A stretch of DNA of 33,536 nt, from positions 1 to 33,536 of the forward strand of contig JAFTYI010000043.1 of the NCBI GenBank assembly GCA_017464815.1, written 5' to 3'. A model generated the notes under the pieces. That model worked only from the letters and a program-made list of their open reading frames with translations, was not told where the DNA came from and did not search any database. A program made the position numbers and the translations under genes. This document shows, piece after piece, positions 16,412 through 22,665 of this stretch. The first letter of the stretch is position 1. The number at the start of each line of letters is the position of its first letter. Source of the stretch: Bacteroidaceae bacterium (GTDB taxonomy: Bacteria > Bacteroidota > Bacteroidia > Bacteroidales > Bacteroidaceae).

Positions 16412-16497
16412 AAGGGTCGATAACTAACAAAAAGTAGTAGAAAACCTGCTTTGGCTTACAAAATTAAAGAAAAAGTAGAAAAAATATCGAAAGTTTG

Positions 16498-16528
16498 TTT
16501 GTTGATTGCGAAAATCTACTTACCTTTG
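16498..16528 (+). promoter_or_regulatory. ilv operon promoter
   Basis: TTTG 16498-16501 and TACCTTTG 16521-16528 are 19 bases apart. Transcription would begin about 16535, upstream of the leader peptide and the attenuator. Confidence 0.75.
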
Positions 16529-16561
16529 CAGTCGTTAATCGAAATAACAAGGAAAGAGAAT

Positions 16562-16639
16562 ATGATTCTGAGTACAAACATTGCACGAATTAGCAGCCTA
16601 CTACTGGTCAACGTCGTGGTGGAAACATCAAGAGCGTGA
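16562..16639 (+). CDS. ilv leader peptide (25 residues, Leu/Val/Ile-rich)
   Basis: This short frame starts at ATG 16562 after a purine-rich stretch (GGAAAGAGAAT) and ends at TGA 16637. Eleven of 25 residues are Ile, Leu or Val, with the core SSLLLVNVVVE (codons cta cta ctg gtc aac gtc gtg gtg). It sits between a promoter and an intrinsic terminator ahead of the branched-chain amino acid genes, so it is the sensor of an attenuator. A ribosome stalled at the Leu/Val codons leaves the downstream strand 16636-16646 free. A ribosome that reaches the stop covers it. It has no other likely role. Confidence 0.85.
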   Translation: MILSTNIARISSLLLVNVVVETSRA

Positions 16640-16734
16640 GAAAGGCGTGTATATATATATATGGAATGTACGAAGATATAAACGGATAAAGTAAAATCGG
16701 ATAGCCTTTCTCACAGATGTGAGAGAGGCTTTTT
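16636..16734 (+). promoter_or_regulatory. ilv transcription attenuator (antiterminator and terminator)
   Basis: The terminator is a 12-bp stem: AGCCTTTCTCAC (16703-16714), loop AGAT, GTGAGAGAGGCT (16719-16730), with T16731-16734 behind. Upstream, GTGAGAAAGGC at 16636-16646 is an exact 11-base complement of GCCTTTCTCAC (16704-16714), the 5' arm of the terminator, so the two pairings exclude each other. The antiterminator strand overlaps the leader stop codon. Hence full translation hides it and lets the terminator form, while stalling at Leu/Val codons frees it and lets transcription enter ilvD. Confidence 0.88.
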
Positions 16735-16756
16735 GAATTAAAAAGAGGAAAGACGT

Positions 16757-18562
16757 ATGAAACATCAGTTGCGTAGCGCATTCAGCACACAAGGCCGCCG
16801 CATGGCCGGAGCACGCGCCCTTTGGGTGGCCAACGGCATGAAGAAGGAGCAGATGGGAAAACCCATCATTGCCATAGCCAACTCATTCACCCAGTTTGTA
16901 CCGGGACACACCCACTTGCACGAGATTGGGCAGTTGGTGAAGAGCGAGATTGAACGGCTCGGATGCTTTGCCGCCGAGTTCAACACCATAGCCATCGACG
17001 ACGGCATTGCCATGGGGCACGACGGTATGCTCTACTCCCTGCCCAGCCGCGATATCATCGCCGATTCGGTGGAGTATATGTGCAACGCCCACAAGGCCGA
17101 TGCGCTGGTGTGCATCTCGAACTGCGACAAGATTACTCCGGGTATGCTGATGGCTGCCATGCGATTGAACATCCCCACCGTGTTCGTGAGCGGTGGCCCC
17201 ATGGAAGCCGGCGAGTGGGGTGGGCGACACCTCGACCTCATCGACGCGATGATAAAGGGTGCCGATGCATCGGTGAGCGACGAGGAGGTGGCCGAGATTG
17301 AGCGCCACGCCTGTCCCGGATGCGGATGCTGTTCGGGTATGTTCACGGCCAACTCGATGAACTGTCTGACCGAAGCACTGGGACTCTCCCTGCCCGGAAA
17401 CGGTACCATCCTGGCTACGCACGAGAACCGCATACAACTCTTCAAGGATGCCGCCGCACTCATCGTGAAGAATGCCTACAAGTACTACGAAGAGGGCGAC
17501 GAGCGTGTGCTCCCCCTGAGCATCGCCAAGCGCGAAGCGTTCCTCAACGCCATGACGTTGGACATCGCCATGGGCGGCTCCACCAACACTGTGCTCCACC
17601 TGCTGGCCGTGGCCAACGAGGCGGGAGTGGACTTCACAATGGACGACATCGACATGCTTTCGCGTCGTGTGCCCTGCCTCTGCAAGGTGGCGCCTAATAC
17701 ACAGAAATACCATATCCAGGACGTGAACCGTGCCGGAGGAATCCTCAATATCTTAGCTGAGTTGGCCAAGGGCGGATTGCTCGACACCTCGGCCGTAAGA
17801 GTGAACGGTACGACACTGGGCGAAGATATTGCCCGCTACAACATCACCCGTGCTGACGGGGCGGATGCTGAAGCAAAGCGTATCTATAGCAGTGCCCCCG
17901 CAAACAAGTTCAGCATCAAGGCCGGTTCGCAAGCCACTTACTACAAGGAACTGGATACCGACCGTGCTGAAGGATGCATCCGCGACCTGGCCCATGCCTA
18001 CTCAAAGGATGGCGGACTGGCCGTGTTGAAGGGAAACATTGCACAGGACGGTTGTGTGGTGAAAACGGCCGGAGTAGATGAAAGCATCTGGAAGTTCACC
18101 GGTCCTGCCAAGGTGTTCGACTCGCAGGAGGCTGCTTGCGACGGCATCCTGGGCGGCAAGGTGGTGAGCGGTGATGTGGTGGTCATCACCCACGAAGGTC
18201 CCAAGGGCGGCCCCGGTATGCAGGAGATGCTTTATCCCACCTCTTATATAAAGAGCAAGCACCTCGGCAAGGAGTGCGCCCTGATTACCGACGGACGCTT
18301 TTCGGGCGGCACATCGGGCTTGAGCATCGGTCACATCAGTCCCGAAGCCGCGGCCGGAGGAAACATCGGCAAGCTGGTTGACGGCGACATCATAGAGATT
18401 GACATCCCCAACCGCACGATAAACGTGCGCCTCAGTGACGAAGAGCTGGCCGCACGCCCCATGACTCCCATGACCCGCGACCGCGTGGTGAGCAAGAGCC
18501 TCCGCGCCTACGCCAGCATGGTAAGCTCGGCCGACAAGGGTGGGGTGAGAATTGTAGAATAA
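16757..18562 (+). CDS. ilvD: dihydroxy-acid dehydratase
   Basis: The 601-residue IlvD/Edd-family enzyme dehydrates 2,3-dihydroxy-isovalerate and -methylvalerate in valine and isoleucine synthesis. Iron-sulfur ligand cysteines lie in [15 protein letters not shown] (about residues 118-132) and [19 protein letters not shown] (about 190-208). [20 protein letters not shown] near 515-534 is the C-terminal signature. The start fits [20 protein letters not shown], the usual family opening. It is the first structural gene after the attenuator; ilvB follows 13 bases on. Confidence 0.97.
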
Positions 18563-18575
18563 ATAATAGAAAAAG

Positions 18576-20270
18576 ATGAACCAACAAATAACAGGAGCAG
18601 AGGCGCTGATGCGCTCGTTGGAGCACCAGGGGGTGAAGACCCTCTTCGGCTATCCGGGCGGAAGCATCATGCCTACTTTCGATGCGCTGTACGGCCATCG
18701 CGATACGTTGAACCACATACTGGTGCGCCACGAACAGGGTGCCACACATGCCGCTCAGGGCTTTGCCCGTGTGTCGGGTGAGGTAGGAGTGTGCCTGGTG
18801 ACGAGCGGACCCGGTGCAACCAACACGTTGACAGGCATTGCCGATGCCATGATTGACAGTACCCCCATCGTGGTGATTGCCGGACAGGTGCCCACGGGAT
18901 TCTTGGGCACGGATGCCTTTCAGGAGGTCGATTTGGTAAGCATTACGCAACCCATCACCAAGTGGAGCTACCAGATACGCTCGGCCAAGGATGTGGCTTG
19001 GGCCGTGGCACGTGCCTTCTTCTTGGCCAAGAACGGACGTCCGGGTCCCGTCGTCCTCGACTTCACCAAGAATGCACAGGCGGAGATGGTGGATTACGAA
19101 CCGGCAACGGTGGATTTTATCCGCAGTTATGACCCCAATCCCCTGCCTCGGGAGGGTGCTCTCGAAGAGGCTGCCGCGCTGATTAACGGAGCCAAGCGCC
19201 CGCTGGTGCTTGTGGGACAAGGCGTGGAGCTGGGCGGTGCACAAGCCGAGATGCGTGCGCTTCTCGAGAAGGCCGACCTGCCCTGCGGATGCACGTTGCT
19301 GGGTCTTTCGGCCGTCCCCTCTGACCATCCGTTGAACATGGGCATGTTGGGAATGCACGGCAACCTTGCCCCCAACGTGAAGACCAACGAGTGCGACGTG
19401 CTCATTGCCGTGGGTATGCGCTTCGACGACCGTGTGACGGGCAATTTGGCCACCTACGCCAAGCAGGCAAAGATAATCCACATGGACATCGACCCCTCGG
19501 AGTTCAACAAGAACGTAAAGGTGGATGTGGAGGTGCTGGGCAACTGCAAACTGACACTGAAAGCACTGACCGACCTTGTACACGAGGCCAAGCATACAGC
19601 GTGGATAGAGAGTTTCGGAGAGCATAAGGCGATAGAGAACAATCGCGTCATCGAACCCGAAATACATCCCACCGAAGGCTCCTTGAACATGGGCGAGGTG
19701 GTGCGTGCCGTCAGCGAAGAGAGCCGCCACGAGGCCATCCTTGTGACCGATGTTGGACAGAACCAGATGATGTCGGCCCGTTACTTCAAATATACCAAGG
19801 AACGCAGCATCGTCACCAGTGGCGGCCTTGGTACGATGGGCTTCGGAATGCCCGCCGCCATCGGTGCCACCTTCGGACGCCCCGATCGCACGGTGTGTGT
19901 CTTCATGGGCGACGGTGGTTTCCAAATGAACATCCAGGAACTGGGCACCATCATGGAACAACGGGCACCGGTGAAGATGATTCTGATGAACAACAACTAC
20001 TTGGGCAACGTGCGCCAGTGGCAGGCCATGTTCTTCGGACGCCGCTATTCGTTCACTCCCATGATGAACCCCGACTATATGCAGATTGCCGCAGCTTATA
20101 ATATCCCCGCCCGCCGTGTGACGGAGCGTGAGGAGTTGCGCGATGCCATCCGCGAGATGTTGGACACCGATGGCCCCTTCATCCTCGAAGCCTGCGTCAT
20201 CGAGGAGGGTAATGTGATGCCTATGACTCCCCCGGGAGGAACAGTGGATAAAATGCTTTTAGAGTGCTGA
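18576..20270 (+). CDS. ilvB: acetolactate synthase, large (catalytic) subunit
   Basis: The 564-residue thiamine-diphosphate enzyme makes acetolactate or acetohydroxybutyrate from pyruvate. The N-terminal TPP domain has FGYPGGSIMPTFDALY and the catalytic glutamate in RHEQGATHAAQGFAR (about 49-63). The C-terminal TPP/Mg motif is MGDGGFQMNIQELGTIMEQ followed by NNNYLGNVRQWQ (about 445-480). The central FAD domain is present. It runs into the regulatory subunit gene with a 2-base gap. Confidence 0.97.
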   Translation: MNQQITGAEALMRSLEHQGVKTLFGYPGGSIMPTFDALYGHRDTLNHILVRHEQGATHAAQGFARVSGEVGVCLVTSGPGATNTLTGIADAMIDSTPIVVIAGQVPTGFLGTDAFQEVDLVSITQPITKWSYQIRSAKDVAWAVARAFFLAKNGRPGPVVLDFTKNAQAEMVDYEPATVDFIRSYDPNPLPREGALEEAAALINGAKRPLVLVGQGVELGGAQAEMRALLEKADLPCGCTLLGLSAVPSDHPLNMGMLGMHGNLAPNVKTNECDVLIAVGMRFDDRVTGNLATYAKQAKIIHMDIDPSEFNKNVKVDVEVLGNCKLTLKALTDLVHEAKHTAWIESFGEHKAIENNRVIEPEIHPTEGSLNMGEVVRAVSEESRHEAILVTDVGQNQMMSARYFKYTKERSIVTSGGLGTMGFGMPAAIGATFGRPDRTVCVFMGDGGFQMNIQELGTIMEQRAPVKMILMNNNYLGNVRQWQAMFFGRRYSFTPMMNPDYMQIAAAYNIPARRVTEREELRDAIREMLDTDGPFILEACVIEEGNVMPMTPPGGTVDKMLLEC

Positions 20271-20272
20271 GT

Positions 20273-20830
20273 ATGGAAAAGACATTATATACAATAATCG
20301 TTCATTCAGAGAACATCGCCGGTCTTTTGAATCAAGTGACCGCCGTGTTCACCCGCCGACAGATAAATATCGAGAGTCTGAACGTGTCGGCTTCGTCCAT
20401 CAAAGGAATCCACAAATACACCATCACCGCATGGGCTACCCAGAGCGATGTGGAGAAGGTGGTGAAGCAGATAGAGCGCAAGGTGGATGTTCTTCAAGCC
20501 AACTACTTCACTGATGACCAAATCTATCAGCACGAAATAGCCCTCTACAAGTTGGCTACTCCCATCTTCCAGGCCAACCCTACGGCGTCGAAGATTATCC
20601 GTCGCCACATGGCCCGCGTGGTGGAGGTGAATCCCACCTTCTGCATTGTGGAGAAGAACGGTATGAGCGAGGAGATAACTTCCCTCTACGAAGAGTTGCA
20701 GCAGTTTGGCATCGTCCTCCAGTTTGTCCGTTCAGGACGAGTGGCCATCTCCACCAGTTGCTTCGAGCGGCTGAACGAGTATCTGGCCATGCGGGAGGAG
20801 AAGTATAATAAGGAAAAGGAGATGAAATAA
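20273..20830 (+). CDS. ilvN: acetolactate synthase, regulatory (small) subunit
   Basis: The 185-residue protein begins with an ACT domain (YTIIVHSENIAGLLNQVTAV, about residues 5-24) that binds valine for feedback control of IlvB, followed by the small-subunit C-terminal domain. I chose ATG 20273, which gives the expected MEKTLYTII start. A GTG at 20264 overlapping the ilvB stop would add three residues and cannot be excluded. The next gene begins 7 bases after its stop. Confidence 0.93.
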   Translation: MEKTLYTIIVHSENIAGLLNQVTAVFTRRQINIESLNVSASSIKGIHKYTITAWATQSDVEKVVKQIERKVDVLQANYFTDDQIYQHEIALYKLATPIFQANPTASKIIRRHMARVVEVNPTFCIVEKNGMSEEITSLYEELQQFGIVLQFVRSGRVAISTSCFERLNEYLAMREEKYNKEKEMK

Positions 20831-20837
20831 AAGAATT

Positions 20838-21578
20838 ATGACCGACAACAAAGTAGGAACATATAATTTCGTGGCCGAGCCTTTCCACGTCGATTTCACG
20901 GGGAGGCTGACGATGGGTGTGTTGGGCAACCATTTGCTCAATTGTGCAGGCTTCCATGCCGCCGACCGTGGCTTTGGCATTGCCGAGCTGAACGAGAACC
21001 ACTACACGTGGGTACTCTCCCGGTTGGCCATCGAACTGGAGGACATGCCCCGCCAGTACGAACCGTTCAGTATCGAGACGTGGGTGGAGAATGTCTATCG
21101 CCTCTTCACCGACCGTAACTTTGCCATCCTCAACAAGGAGGGCAAGCCCGTGGGCTATGCCCGCTCGGTGTGGGCCATGATAAGCATGGAGACCCGTAAA
21201 CCGGCCGACCTGCTCACGCTGCACGGCGGAAGCATCACCGGGTATGTGTGCGACAAGGAGTGCCCCATCAGCAAGCCCGGCCGCATCAAGGTGACCACCG
21301 ACATGCCCGTGGAGGTGTACGAGACACGCTACAGCGACATCGACATCAACGGCCACGTGAACAGCATCAAGTACATCGAGCACATCCTCGACCTCTTCCC
21401 CATGGAGACCTTCAAGGAGAAGTGCATCCGACGCTTCGAGATGGCCTACGTGGCCGAGAGCTACTACGGCGACACCCTCAGCTTCTATCGCGAAGAGGTT
21501 GCTCCCGGTGAGTACGACATCGAAGTGCGCAAGAATGGCACGGAAGTGGTGGTGCGTAGCAAAGTAATATTGAAATAA
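20838..21578 (+). CDS. acyl-ACP thioesterase
   Basis: The 246-residue protein matches the bacterial FatA-like acyl-ACP thioesterases, which release free fatty acids from acyl carrier protein through a double hotdog fold. The second half carries the hotdog motif SDIDINGHVNSIKYIEHILD (about 169-188), where Asn and His correspond to the plant catalytic pair. The first half has NHLLNCAGFHAADRGFG. It sits in the ilv operon between ilvN and ilvC, with short gaps on both sides. The linkage suggests a tie between branched-chain keto acid supply and branched-chain fatty acids; that is inference. Confidence 0.87.
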   Translation: MTDNKVGTYNFVAEPFHVDFTGRLTMGVLGNHLLNCAGFHAADRGFGIAELNENHYTWVLSRLAIELEDMPRQYEPFSIETWVENVYRLFTDRNFAILNKEGKPVGYARSVWAMISMETRKPADLLTLHGGSITGYVCDKECPISKPGRIKVTTDMPVEVYETRYSDIDINGHVNSIKYIEHILDLFPMETFKEKCIRRFEMAYVAESYYGDTLSFYREEVAPGEYDIEVRKNGTEVVVRSKVILK

Positions 21579-21621: not shown

Positions 21622-22665
21622 ATGGCACAATTGAATTTTGGCGGTGTTATCGAGAATGTGATGACCCGCGAAGAGTTTCCCTTGGAAAAGGCACGTGAAG
21701 TTTTGAAGAACGAGACCATCGCCGTCATCGGTTACGGTGTGCAAGGCCCCGGCCAGTCATTGAACCTGCGCGACAATGGTTTCAACGTCATCGTTGGCCA
21801 GCGTCAGGGAAAGACTTACGACAAGGCCGTGTCTGACGGATGGGTACCGGGTGAGACACTCTTCTCTATCGAAGAGGCTTGTGAGAAGGGTACCATCATC
21901 ATGTGCTTGCTCTCCGATGCAGCAGTGATGAGCGTATGGCCCACCATCAAACCCTATCTGACAACAGGTAAGGCCCTCTACTTCTCTCACGGGTTTGCCA
22001 TCACATGGAACGACCGCACAGGCGTGGTTCCTCCCACAGATATCGACGTTGTCATGGTAGCCCCCAAGGGTTCGGGTACATCACTCCGCACCATGTTCCT
22101 CGAAGGTCGTGGCTTGAACTCATCATACGCCGTTTATCAGGACCACACAGGCCGTGCCCTTGAGCGCACACTCGCCCTCGGTATCGGTGTAGGTTCAGGT
22201 TACCTGTTCGAGACAACCTTCATCCGCGAGGCCACATCTGACCTCACCGGTGAGCGTGGTTCGCTGATGGGTGCTATCCAGGGTCTGCTTTTGGCACAGT
22301 ACGAAGTGCTCCGCGAGAACGGCCACACTCCCTCTGAGGCATTCAACGAAACAGTAGAAGAGTTGACCCAGTCACTGATGCCCCTCTTTGCCAAGAACGG
22401 TATGGACTGGATGTATGCCAACTGCTCTACCACTGCCCAGCGTGGTGCGCTCGACTGGATGGGCCCCTTCCACGATGCCATCAAGCCCGTGGTACAGAAG
22501 CTTTACGCCAGCGTGAAGTGTGGTAACGAGGCACAGATCAGCATCGACAGCAACTCCAAGCCCGACTATCGCGAGAAGTTGGAAGAAGAGTTGAAGGCAT
22601 TGCGCGAAAGCGAAATGTGGCAGACAGCTGTTACTGTTCGCCAGCTTCGTCCGGAGAACAATTGA
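21622..22665 (+). CDS. ilvC: ketol-acid reductoisomerase
   Basis: The 347-residue enzyme isomerises and reduces acetolactate to 2,3-dihydroxy-isovalerate. The Rossmann glycine loop is AVIGYGVQGPGQSLNLRDNG (about residues 33-52), a variant of the usual GYGSQGHA. The cofactor loop is VGQRQGKTYDKA, and the KARI C-terminal knot includes LTGERGSLMGAIQGLL with metal-binding acidic residues around SDLTGE and NETVEELT. It is the last gene of the ilv operon and is followed by a nested inverted repeat. Confidence 0.95.
   Translation: MAQLNFGGVIENVMTREEFPLEKAREVLKNETIAVIGYGVQGPGQSLNLRDNGFNVIVGQRQGKTYDKAVSDGWVPGETLFSIEEACEKGTIIMCLLSDAAVMSVWPTIKPYLTTGKALYFSHGFAITWNDRTGVVPPTDIDVVMVAPKGSGTSLRTMFLEGRGLNSSYAVYQDHTGRALERTLALGIGVGSGYLFETTFIREATSDLTGERGSLMGAIQGLLLAQYEVLRENGHTPSEAFNETVEELTQSLMPLFAKNGMDWMYANCSTTAQRGALDWMGPFHDAIKPVVQKLYASVKCGNEAQISIDSNSKPDYREKLEEELKALRESEMWQTAVTVRQLRPENN

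Follow-up and report, generated by a model that had tools for sequence, protein, structure and literature searches.

In E. coli, the ilvGMEDA, ilvBN, and leuABCD operons for the synthesis of branched-chain amino acids (BCAAs) are controlled by leader-peptide attenuators of the enteric type, whose hairpin 1:2 sequesters segment 2 unless the leader is translated. In the Bacteroidota, the Bacteroid-trp RNA, which we take to be a Trp leader, is a cis-regulatory RNA that precedes an amino-acid operon. It is described in Rfam as family RF01692 (PMC2864571). Clues to leader-peptide attenuation before amino-acid biosynthesis operons come from Flavobacterium psychrophilum, also a member of the Bacteroidota (PMC9723704; its main text does not contain "ilv", and its supplement may hold an ilv case), and short ORFs are described in long 5′ UTRs of B. 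thetaiotaomicron (PMC7366714). The ilvB-II, ilvB-OMG, and ilvB motifs contain BCAA-rich upstream ORFs and were proposed as attenuators of BCAA synthesis (PMC10272879); compared here by description, these motifs lie before ilvB and occur in Corynebacterium, various phyla, and Leptospira. Among the open-access papers listed in our literature searches, none was seen to describe an ilv leader from the Bacteroidales.

We examined a stretch of 33,536 nucleotides from a Bacteroidaceae bacterium (the window), whose genome assembly is 2.63 Mb long and 79% complete. An earlier note on this DNA had proposed that a leader-peptide attenuator, working as a bare two-state switch, controls its ilvD-ilvB-ilvN-thioesterase-ilvC operon. 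The features of the locus are listed in Table 1. The gene upstream of the leader region encodes a SPOUT methyltransferase, and an acyl-ACP thioesterase gene is placed between ilvN and ilvC. Our comparison with relatives strongly supports leader-peptide attenuation, but not the bare two-state version. Since a BCAA run, a promoter, matching antiterminator and terminator strands, and a suitable ribosome geometry occur together, the element is probably a ribosome-mediated transcription attenuator through which the ilv operon responds to charged Leu, Val, and Ile tRNA.

Table 1. Features of the ilv leader and operon, in window coordinates
Feature	Positions	Strand	Basis
Promoter: TTTG 16498-16501, 19-nt spacer, TACCTTTG 16521-16528	16498..16528	+	Direct sequence reading and conservation in relatives
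Putative leader peptide ORF: 25 codons and a TGA stop, with 11 Ile/Leu/Val codons	16562..16639	+	Sequence; BCAA leader with terminator in relatives
Predicted control codons Leu13-Val20 (LLLVNVVV)	16598..16621	+	Codon usage; stall model
P1, a 10-pair hairpin at the place of stem 1:2 that may pause RNA polymerase	16611..16637	+	Folding, codon null, half-swap
Putative antiterminator strand (segment 2), overlapping the leader stop codon	16636..16646	+	Exact complement of 16704-16714; conservation tests
Intrinsic terminator: stem 16703-16714 / 16719-16730, U-tail 16731-16734	16703..16734	+	Sequence, fold, conservation in relatives
ilvD, dihydroxy-acid dehydratase	16757..18562	+	Pfam PF00920, PF24877
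ilvB, acetolactate synthase large subunit	18576..20270	+	Pfam TPP enzyme domains
ilvN, acetolactate synthase small subunit	20264..20830	+	Pfam ALS_ss_C, ACT_AHAS_ss
Acyl-ACP thioesterase	20838..21578	+	Pfam PF01643, PF20791
ilvC, ketol-acid reductoisomerase	21622..22665	+	Pfam KARI_N, KARI_C

The putative leader, with its ATG at 16562 and TGA at 16637-16639, encodes the peptide MILSTNIARISSLLLVNVVVETSRA*. Its length, its Ile/Leu/Val content, and its LLLVNVVV core could be read directly, as described earlier. After the start codon, Ile, Leu, and Val account for 11 of 24 residues, compared to a background of 21.5% of residues in the 11 window genes (binomial P 0.007), and none of the 3923 nine-residue windows in these genes contains seven or more of them. 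Two codons within Leu13-Val20 are CTA, which accounts for 1% of the Leu codons in the same genes.

To this locus we added relatives, for a total of 176 upstream regions: the window, the best 80 ilvD loci listed from a genome collection, 35 further loci (L082-L117 minus the fragment L094), and 60 chosen to spread over genera. Among distinct regions of 150 nt or more, we called the layout where at least six of ten leader residues were Ile, Leu, or Val and a terminator of a set pattern was present. By these criteria, 94 of the 168 distinct regions before ilvD, all of them Bacteroidota by record title or by kinship, have a BCAA leader with a terminator. The count is a lower bound because nine loci (L035, L049, L058, L069, L070, L077, L080, L150, and L151) show BCAA leaders and received no call. 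Some of the 74 regions without a call were missed owing to the terminator pattern used. The Leu/Val/Ile run, whose conservation the earlier note had suggested testing in other Bacteroidales, is conserved in these 94 regions. The terminator pattern favors CCTTTCT-like arms, so that the conservation of the arms arises partly by selection; a pattern-free hairpin scan recovered the same arms in many loci among the matches listed. A search of 295 genomes of the order with the pattern GAGAAAGG-N45-75-CCTTTCTC matched 16, a result we did not use as evidence, as the pattern is ill-suited, being palindromic and set to a longer spacing than is usual.

The promoter, another element of the original proposal, is present ahead of the leader and is of the Bacteroidota type. 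It matches TTTG / TAnnTTTG, which we take to be the consensus for this phylum. TAnnTTTG occurs 15-65 nt upstream of the leader start in 84 of the 92 loci with enough sequence (two of the 94 were too short upstream), compared to 1 of 92 for a control window inside the leader. An E. coli-type promoter scan listed nothing at 16498-16528, its two matches being elsewhere. From the position of the promoter, transcription would start at about 16535.

The terminator before ilvD and its complement are also as first described. The stem has 12 pairs (six G-C) and a loop of AGAT, followed by the U-tail, and the 5′ arm at 16704-16714 (GCCTTTCTCAC) is matched by an exact 11-nt reverse complement at 16636-16646 (GTGAGAAAGGC). 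The segment 16652-16740 folds much more stably than shuffled sequences do (z -5.0), and the terminator motif has a single occurrence in the window's own genome. The terminator scan by itself, however, performs at chance level, with one site found in 1.2 kb and 1.3 expected in shuffles; conservation is therefore the real test and the main evidence. The scan result is what one would expect if the upstream gene's ordinary terminator lay by chance beside an unrelated short ORF. We find this scarcely credible, since the order of the elements and their matching are conserved in 94 regions, and the promoter motif sits between the upstream gene and the leader.

For each of the 94 loci, we took the strongest pairing of the terminator 5′ arm with the end of the leader or the spacer and compared it with 100 shuffles. 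In 80 loci the helix was better at p<=0.05, and 65 of these reached p<=0.01; in 14 loci it was no better than shuffles at 0.05. We also swapped arms between loci, with every locus re-picking its best segment for each arm. Among 44 divergent representatives, pairing with the locus's own arm averaged -17.5 kcal/mol, compared to -15.3 kcal/mol with arms of other loci (z -6.7; 0 of 10,000 permutations), and 24 representatives with variant arms gave the same result (z -5.6; 0 of 10,000 permutations as good). Covariation of the two segments, which had been suggested as a check, is almost absent within the Bacteroidaceae, where the helices are too invariant to show it at the level of single pairs.

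The overlap of the antiterminator strand with the leader stop codon, present in the window, is common but not universal. Among 80 loci with a helix of at least eight pairs, the strand overlaps the stop codon in 50. It begins one base before the stop, as in the window, in 34. In 20, among them Phocaeicola-like loci, it begins within the ORF, 19-25 nt upstream of the stop. All 34 loci of the window's type have Val at positions -7 and -6, counted in codons from the stop. In the Phocaeicola-like loci (e.g., L003, L014, L099, L170, and L172), the leader stop lies ~21 nt further downstream and the antiterminator would thus be translated (…RGEKG…), while its distance to the Val run is kept.

The conserved intrinsic terminator between leader and gene, with its matching antiterminator strand, also bears on whether the leader peptide acts in some other way, through an arrest that exposes or hides the ilvD start, through reinitiation, or as a small functional protein. 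The leader ends 117 nt upstream of ilvD, and its translation is assumed under any of these readings as it is under attenuation. Against such roles stands, besides the terminator, the great variation of the peptides of relatives in sequence and length, with the Ile/Leu/Val run as their main common feature. We judge these roles very improbable.

Another explanation is that a riboswitch, or a tRNA-binding RNA of the T-box kind, works the terminator without translation and that the short ORF is incidental. P1, the antiterminator, and the terminator do make up a structured RNA, and the leader nucleotide sequence is conserved in places across relatives (GTCGTGGT). However, Ile, Leu, and Val are kept in the leader peptides across lineages although leader codons and sequence diverge. 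Moreover, apart from three tRNAs, nothing in the window matched an Rfam family at the gathering score, the ilvD leader locus included, and 16450-16800 gave only five unrelated weak matches up to E 10. This explanation is hardly to be expected, and riboswitch and T-box families were rejected for want of a covariance-model match at the locus. The Bacteroid-trp model likewise had no match at the ilvD leader; it did identify a site elsewhere in the same genome (C6:27182-27344, L266; 56.2 bits with a cut-off of 49). The two elements share their phylum and their position as cis-regulatory RNAs before amino-acid operons.

The earlier note had described the switch as lacking the extra pause hairpin of enteric attenuators. 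We find instead that a hairpin, P1, is predicted over the control codons; its 5′ arm includes the last Val codons, and its 3′ arm extends to the first base of the stop codon. P1 has a predicted probability of 0.85-0.88 while the window RNA ends between 16640 and 16700. Across the 94 loci, the region that starts 26 nt upstream of the antiterminator and takes in its first 5 nt has a folding energy of -8.8 kcal/mol, compared to -5.8 kcal/mol when synonymous codons are redrawn (mean z -1.28), and 37 of 44 divergent representatives fall below their own null. When the stretch stops at the antiterminator start, the effect is smaller (mean z about -0.58 to -0.69). Joining 5′ halves to the 3′ halves of other loci worsens folding (z -6.5; 0 of 10,000), in a test that was cut at the native loop and may slightly favor the native hairpin; the codon-redraw test is independent of this choice. 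Of the P1 cells aligned for the Bacteroidaceae, 89.4% are paired, a share that falls to 31.6-46.4% when partners are slid by one to three columns.

These results argue against an attenuator that is otherwise the same but works as a bare two-state switch, with P1 a by-product of codon choice that has no role. In favor of such a switch, pair-level covariation in P1 is weak in the Bacteroidaceae, with two of ten pairs changed on both sides and 155 of 500 shuffles as high, and P1 shares only 2 nt with the antiterminator strand, which still pairs in the absence of a ribosome (see below). As P1 exceeds both the codon-preserving null and the half-swap control, we consider the bare switch unlikely and favor P1 as a putative pause hairpin. 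In the spacer, at 16647-16702 in the window, relatives repeatedly show a GUAUGUAU-like sequence, and they also have a weak hairpin. We did not adopt this hairpin, between antiterminator and terminator, as a pause hairpin (mean z -0.57; 14 of 43 below -1).

To model the switch, we folded partial transcripts with a masked ribosome whose assumed footprint extends 18 nt upstream and 12 nt downstream of the A-site codon's first base. For window RNA ending at 16718, the probability of the antiterminator helix was 0.97 both without a ribosome and with a stall at Leu13 and 1.00 for stalls at Val16, Val18, and Val20; a ribosome on the stop codon lowered it to 0.00. In these models, then, the strand that is exclusive with the terminator is covered by a ribosome at the stop. 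For RNA ending at 16736, the terminator had a probability of 0.99 and the antiterminator 0.00 in every ribosome state, stalled included. Since the terminator wins in all states at equilibrium, the switch must be kinetic, with the antiterminator forming first and persisting.

Half-made RNAs of 80 loci, selected for an antiterminator helix of at least eight pairs, were folded in the same way. With the ribosome at the stop, the antiterminator probability was below 0.1 in 79 of 80 loci, L140 being the exception that keeps the antiterminator. When the ribosome was placed on the run, the value exceeded 0.5 in 79 of 80 loci for the first codon and in 72 of 80 for the last, where the other eight lose the antiterminator. 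Without a ribosome, it was above 0.5 in 62 of 80.

We propose the following sequence of events. As polymerase makes the leader, a ribosome would translate it, and P1 may pause polymerase so that the ribosome keeps pace. When BCAA-tRNAs are scarce, the ribosome would stall within Leu13-Val20, its front edge just short of 16636, and 16636-16646 could pair with 16704-16714 before the terminator 3′ arm exists, allowing transcription of ilvD-ilvC. When they are ample, the ribosome would reach the UGA and occupy the antiterminator strand, and the terminator would fold and stop transcription near 16734.

The element thus resembles the enteric BCAA attenuators in its BCAA-rich leader, in the antiterminator and terminator before biosynthetic genes, and in a hairpin over the control codons at the place of stem 1:2, albeit one with weak pair-level covariation. 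It differs in its Bacteroidota promoter and in the stop codon inside the antiterminator strand. Also unlike the enteric hairpin 1:2, P1 does not hide segment 2: because it occupies only 2 nt of the antiterminator strand, the leader is predicted to allow read-through when it is not translated, with little protection against it. The ilvD leader is well supported as a leader-peptide attenuator by sequence comparison, and the element is not named in the open-access passages that we consulted.

The attenuator has an uneven distribution. Among the best 80 loci, eight of the ten records titled Prevotella or Prevotellaceae received no call (one, L026, has only 195 nt upstream), and two did (L011 and L030); in Prevotella-titled loci such as L016, L018, and L024, we did not find the attenuator before ilvD. 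It was also found in none of the six ilvD upstream regions sampled from genus g5 (L126-L128 and L155-L157). In G018, one of the genomes without an ilvD attenuator, we saw no convincing His leader (L238) or Thr leader (L260), and Bacteroid-trp is kept. Among ilvD homologues outside the order or far off, 12 of 29 have an upstream ORF with at least seven Ile, Leu, or Val in ten residues, a count based on the ORF criterion alone and without a control. Three loci from Marinifilum, Labilibaculum, and a Marinifilaceae MAG (L069, L077, and L080) have two BCAA leaders in series before ilvD, at about -400 to -70, each followed by a hairpin with a U-tract (the second terminators of L077 and L080 were read by eye). 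Possibly, these tandem leaders form a double attenuator.

In relatives, similar leaders precede leuA and hisG. Upstream of leuA (L224-L235), 10 of 12 loci have an Ile/Leu-rich leader ORF (L226 is misplaced at a contig end and L232 is weak), and a terminator-like CCTTTCTCACTTCC-type hairpin is present in three that we inspected (L225, L229, and L233); these hairpins are of the same CCTTTCTCAC type. A short ORF with a run of His codons lies upstream of hisG in seven of nine loci (L236-L244). Before thrA, four of nine genomes (L256, L258, L259, and L261) have a Thr/Met-rich short ORF followed by a conserved CCCCTNNGGGG stretch, and the six of nine regions inspected showed no clear U-tract terminator; a Met-sensing leader at this position would be unusual. 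Bacteroid-trp matched in 8 of 11 genomes, six above the cut-off, the window's own genome included.

We tentatively put forward a broader reading, whose chances we see as close to balanced: amino-acid synthesis in the Bacteroidota (ilv, leu, his, trp, and perhaps thr/met) may be largely under home-grown leader-peptide attenuators. In the ilv leader, with its UGA inside the antiterminator strand, the terminating ribosome itself would be the "off" signal, and the set may have been doubled into tandem in Marinifilaceae and lost piecemeal in Prevotella-like lineages.

If the attenuator works as proposed, BCAA synthesis in common gut Bacteroidales would be tied to tRNA charging without a protein regulator, through an element that has no Rfam family and falls below the usual gene-calling length. 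The leader codons and the UGA within the antiterminator provide defined targets for experiments on attenuation in the Bacteroidota, where descriptions of it are scarce, and the existence of tandem and lost versions opens the evolution of these switches to testing.
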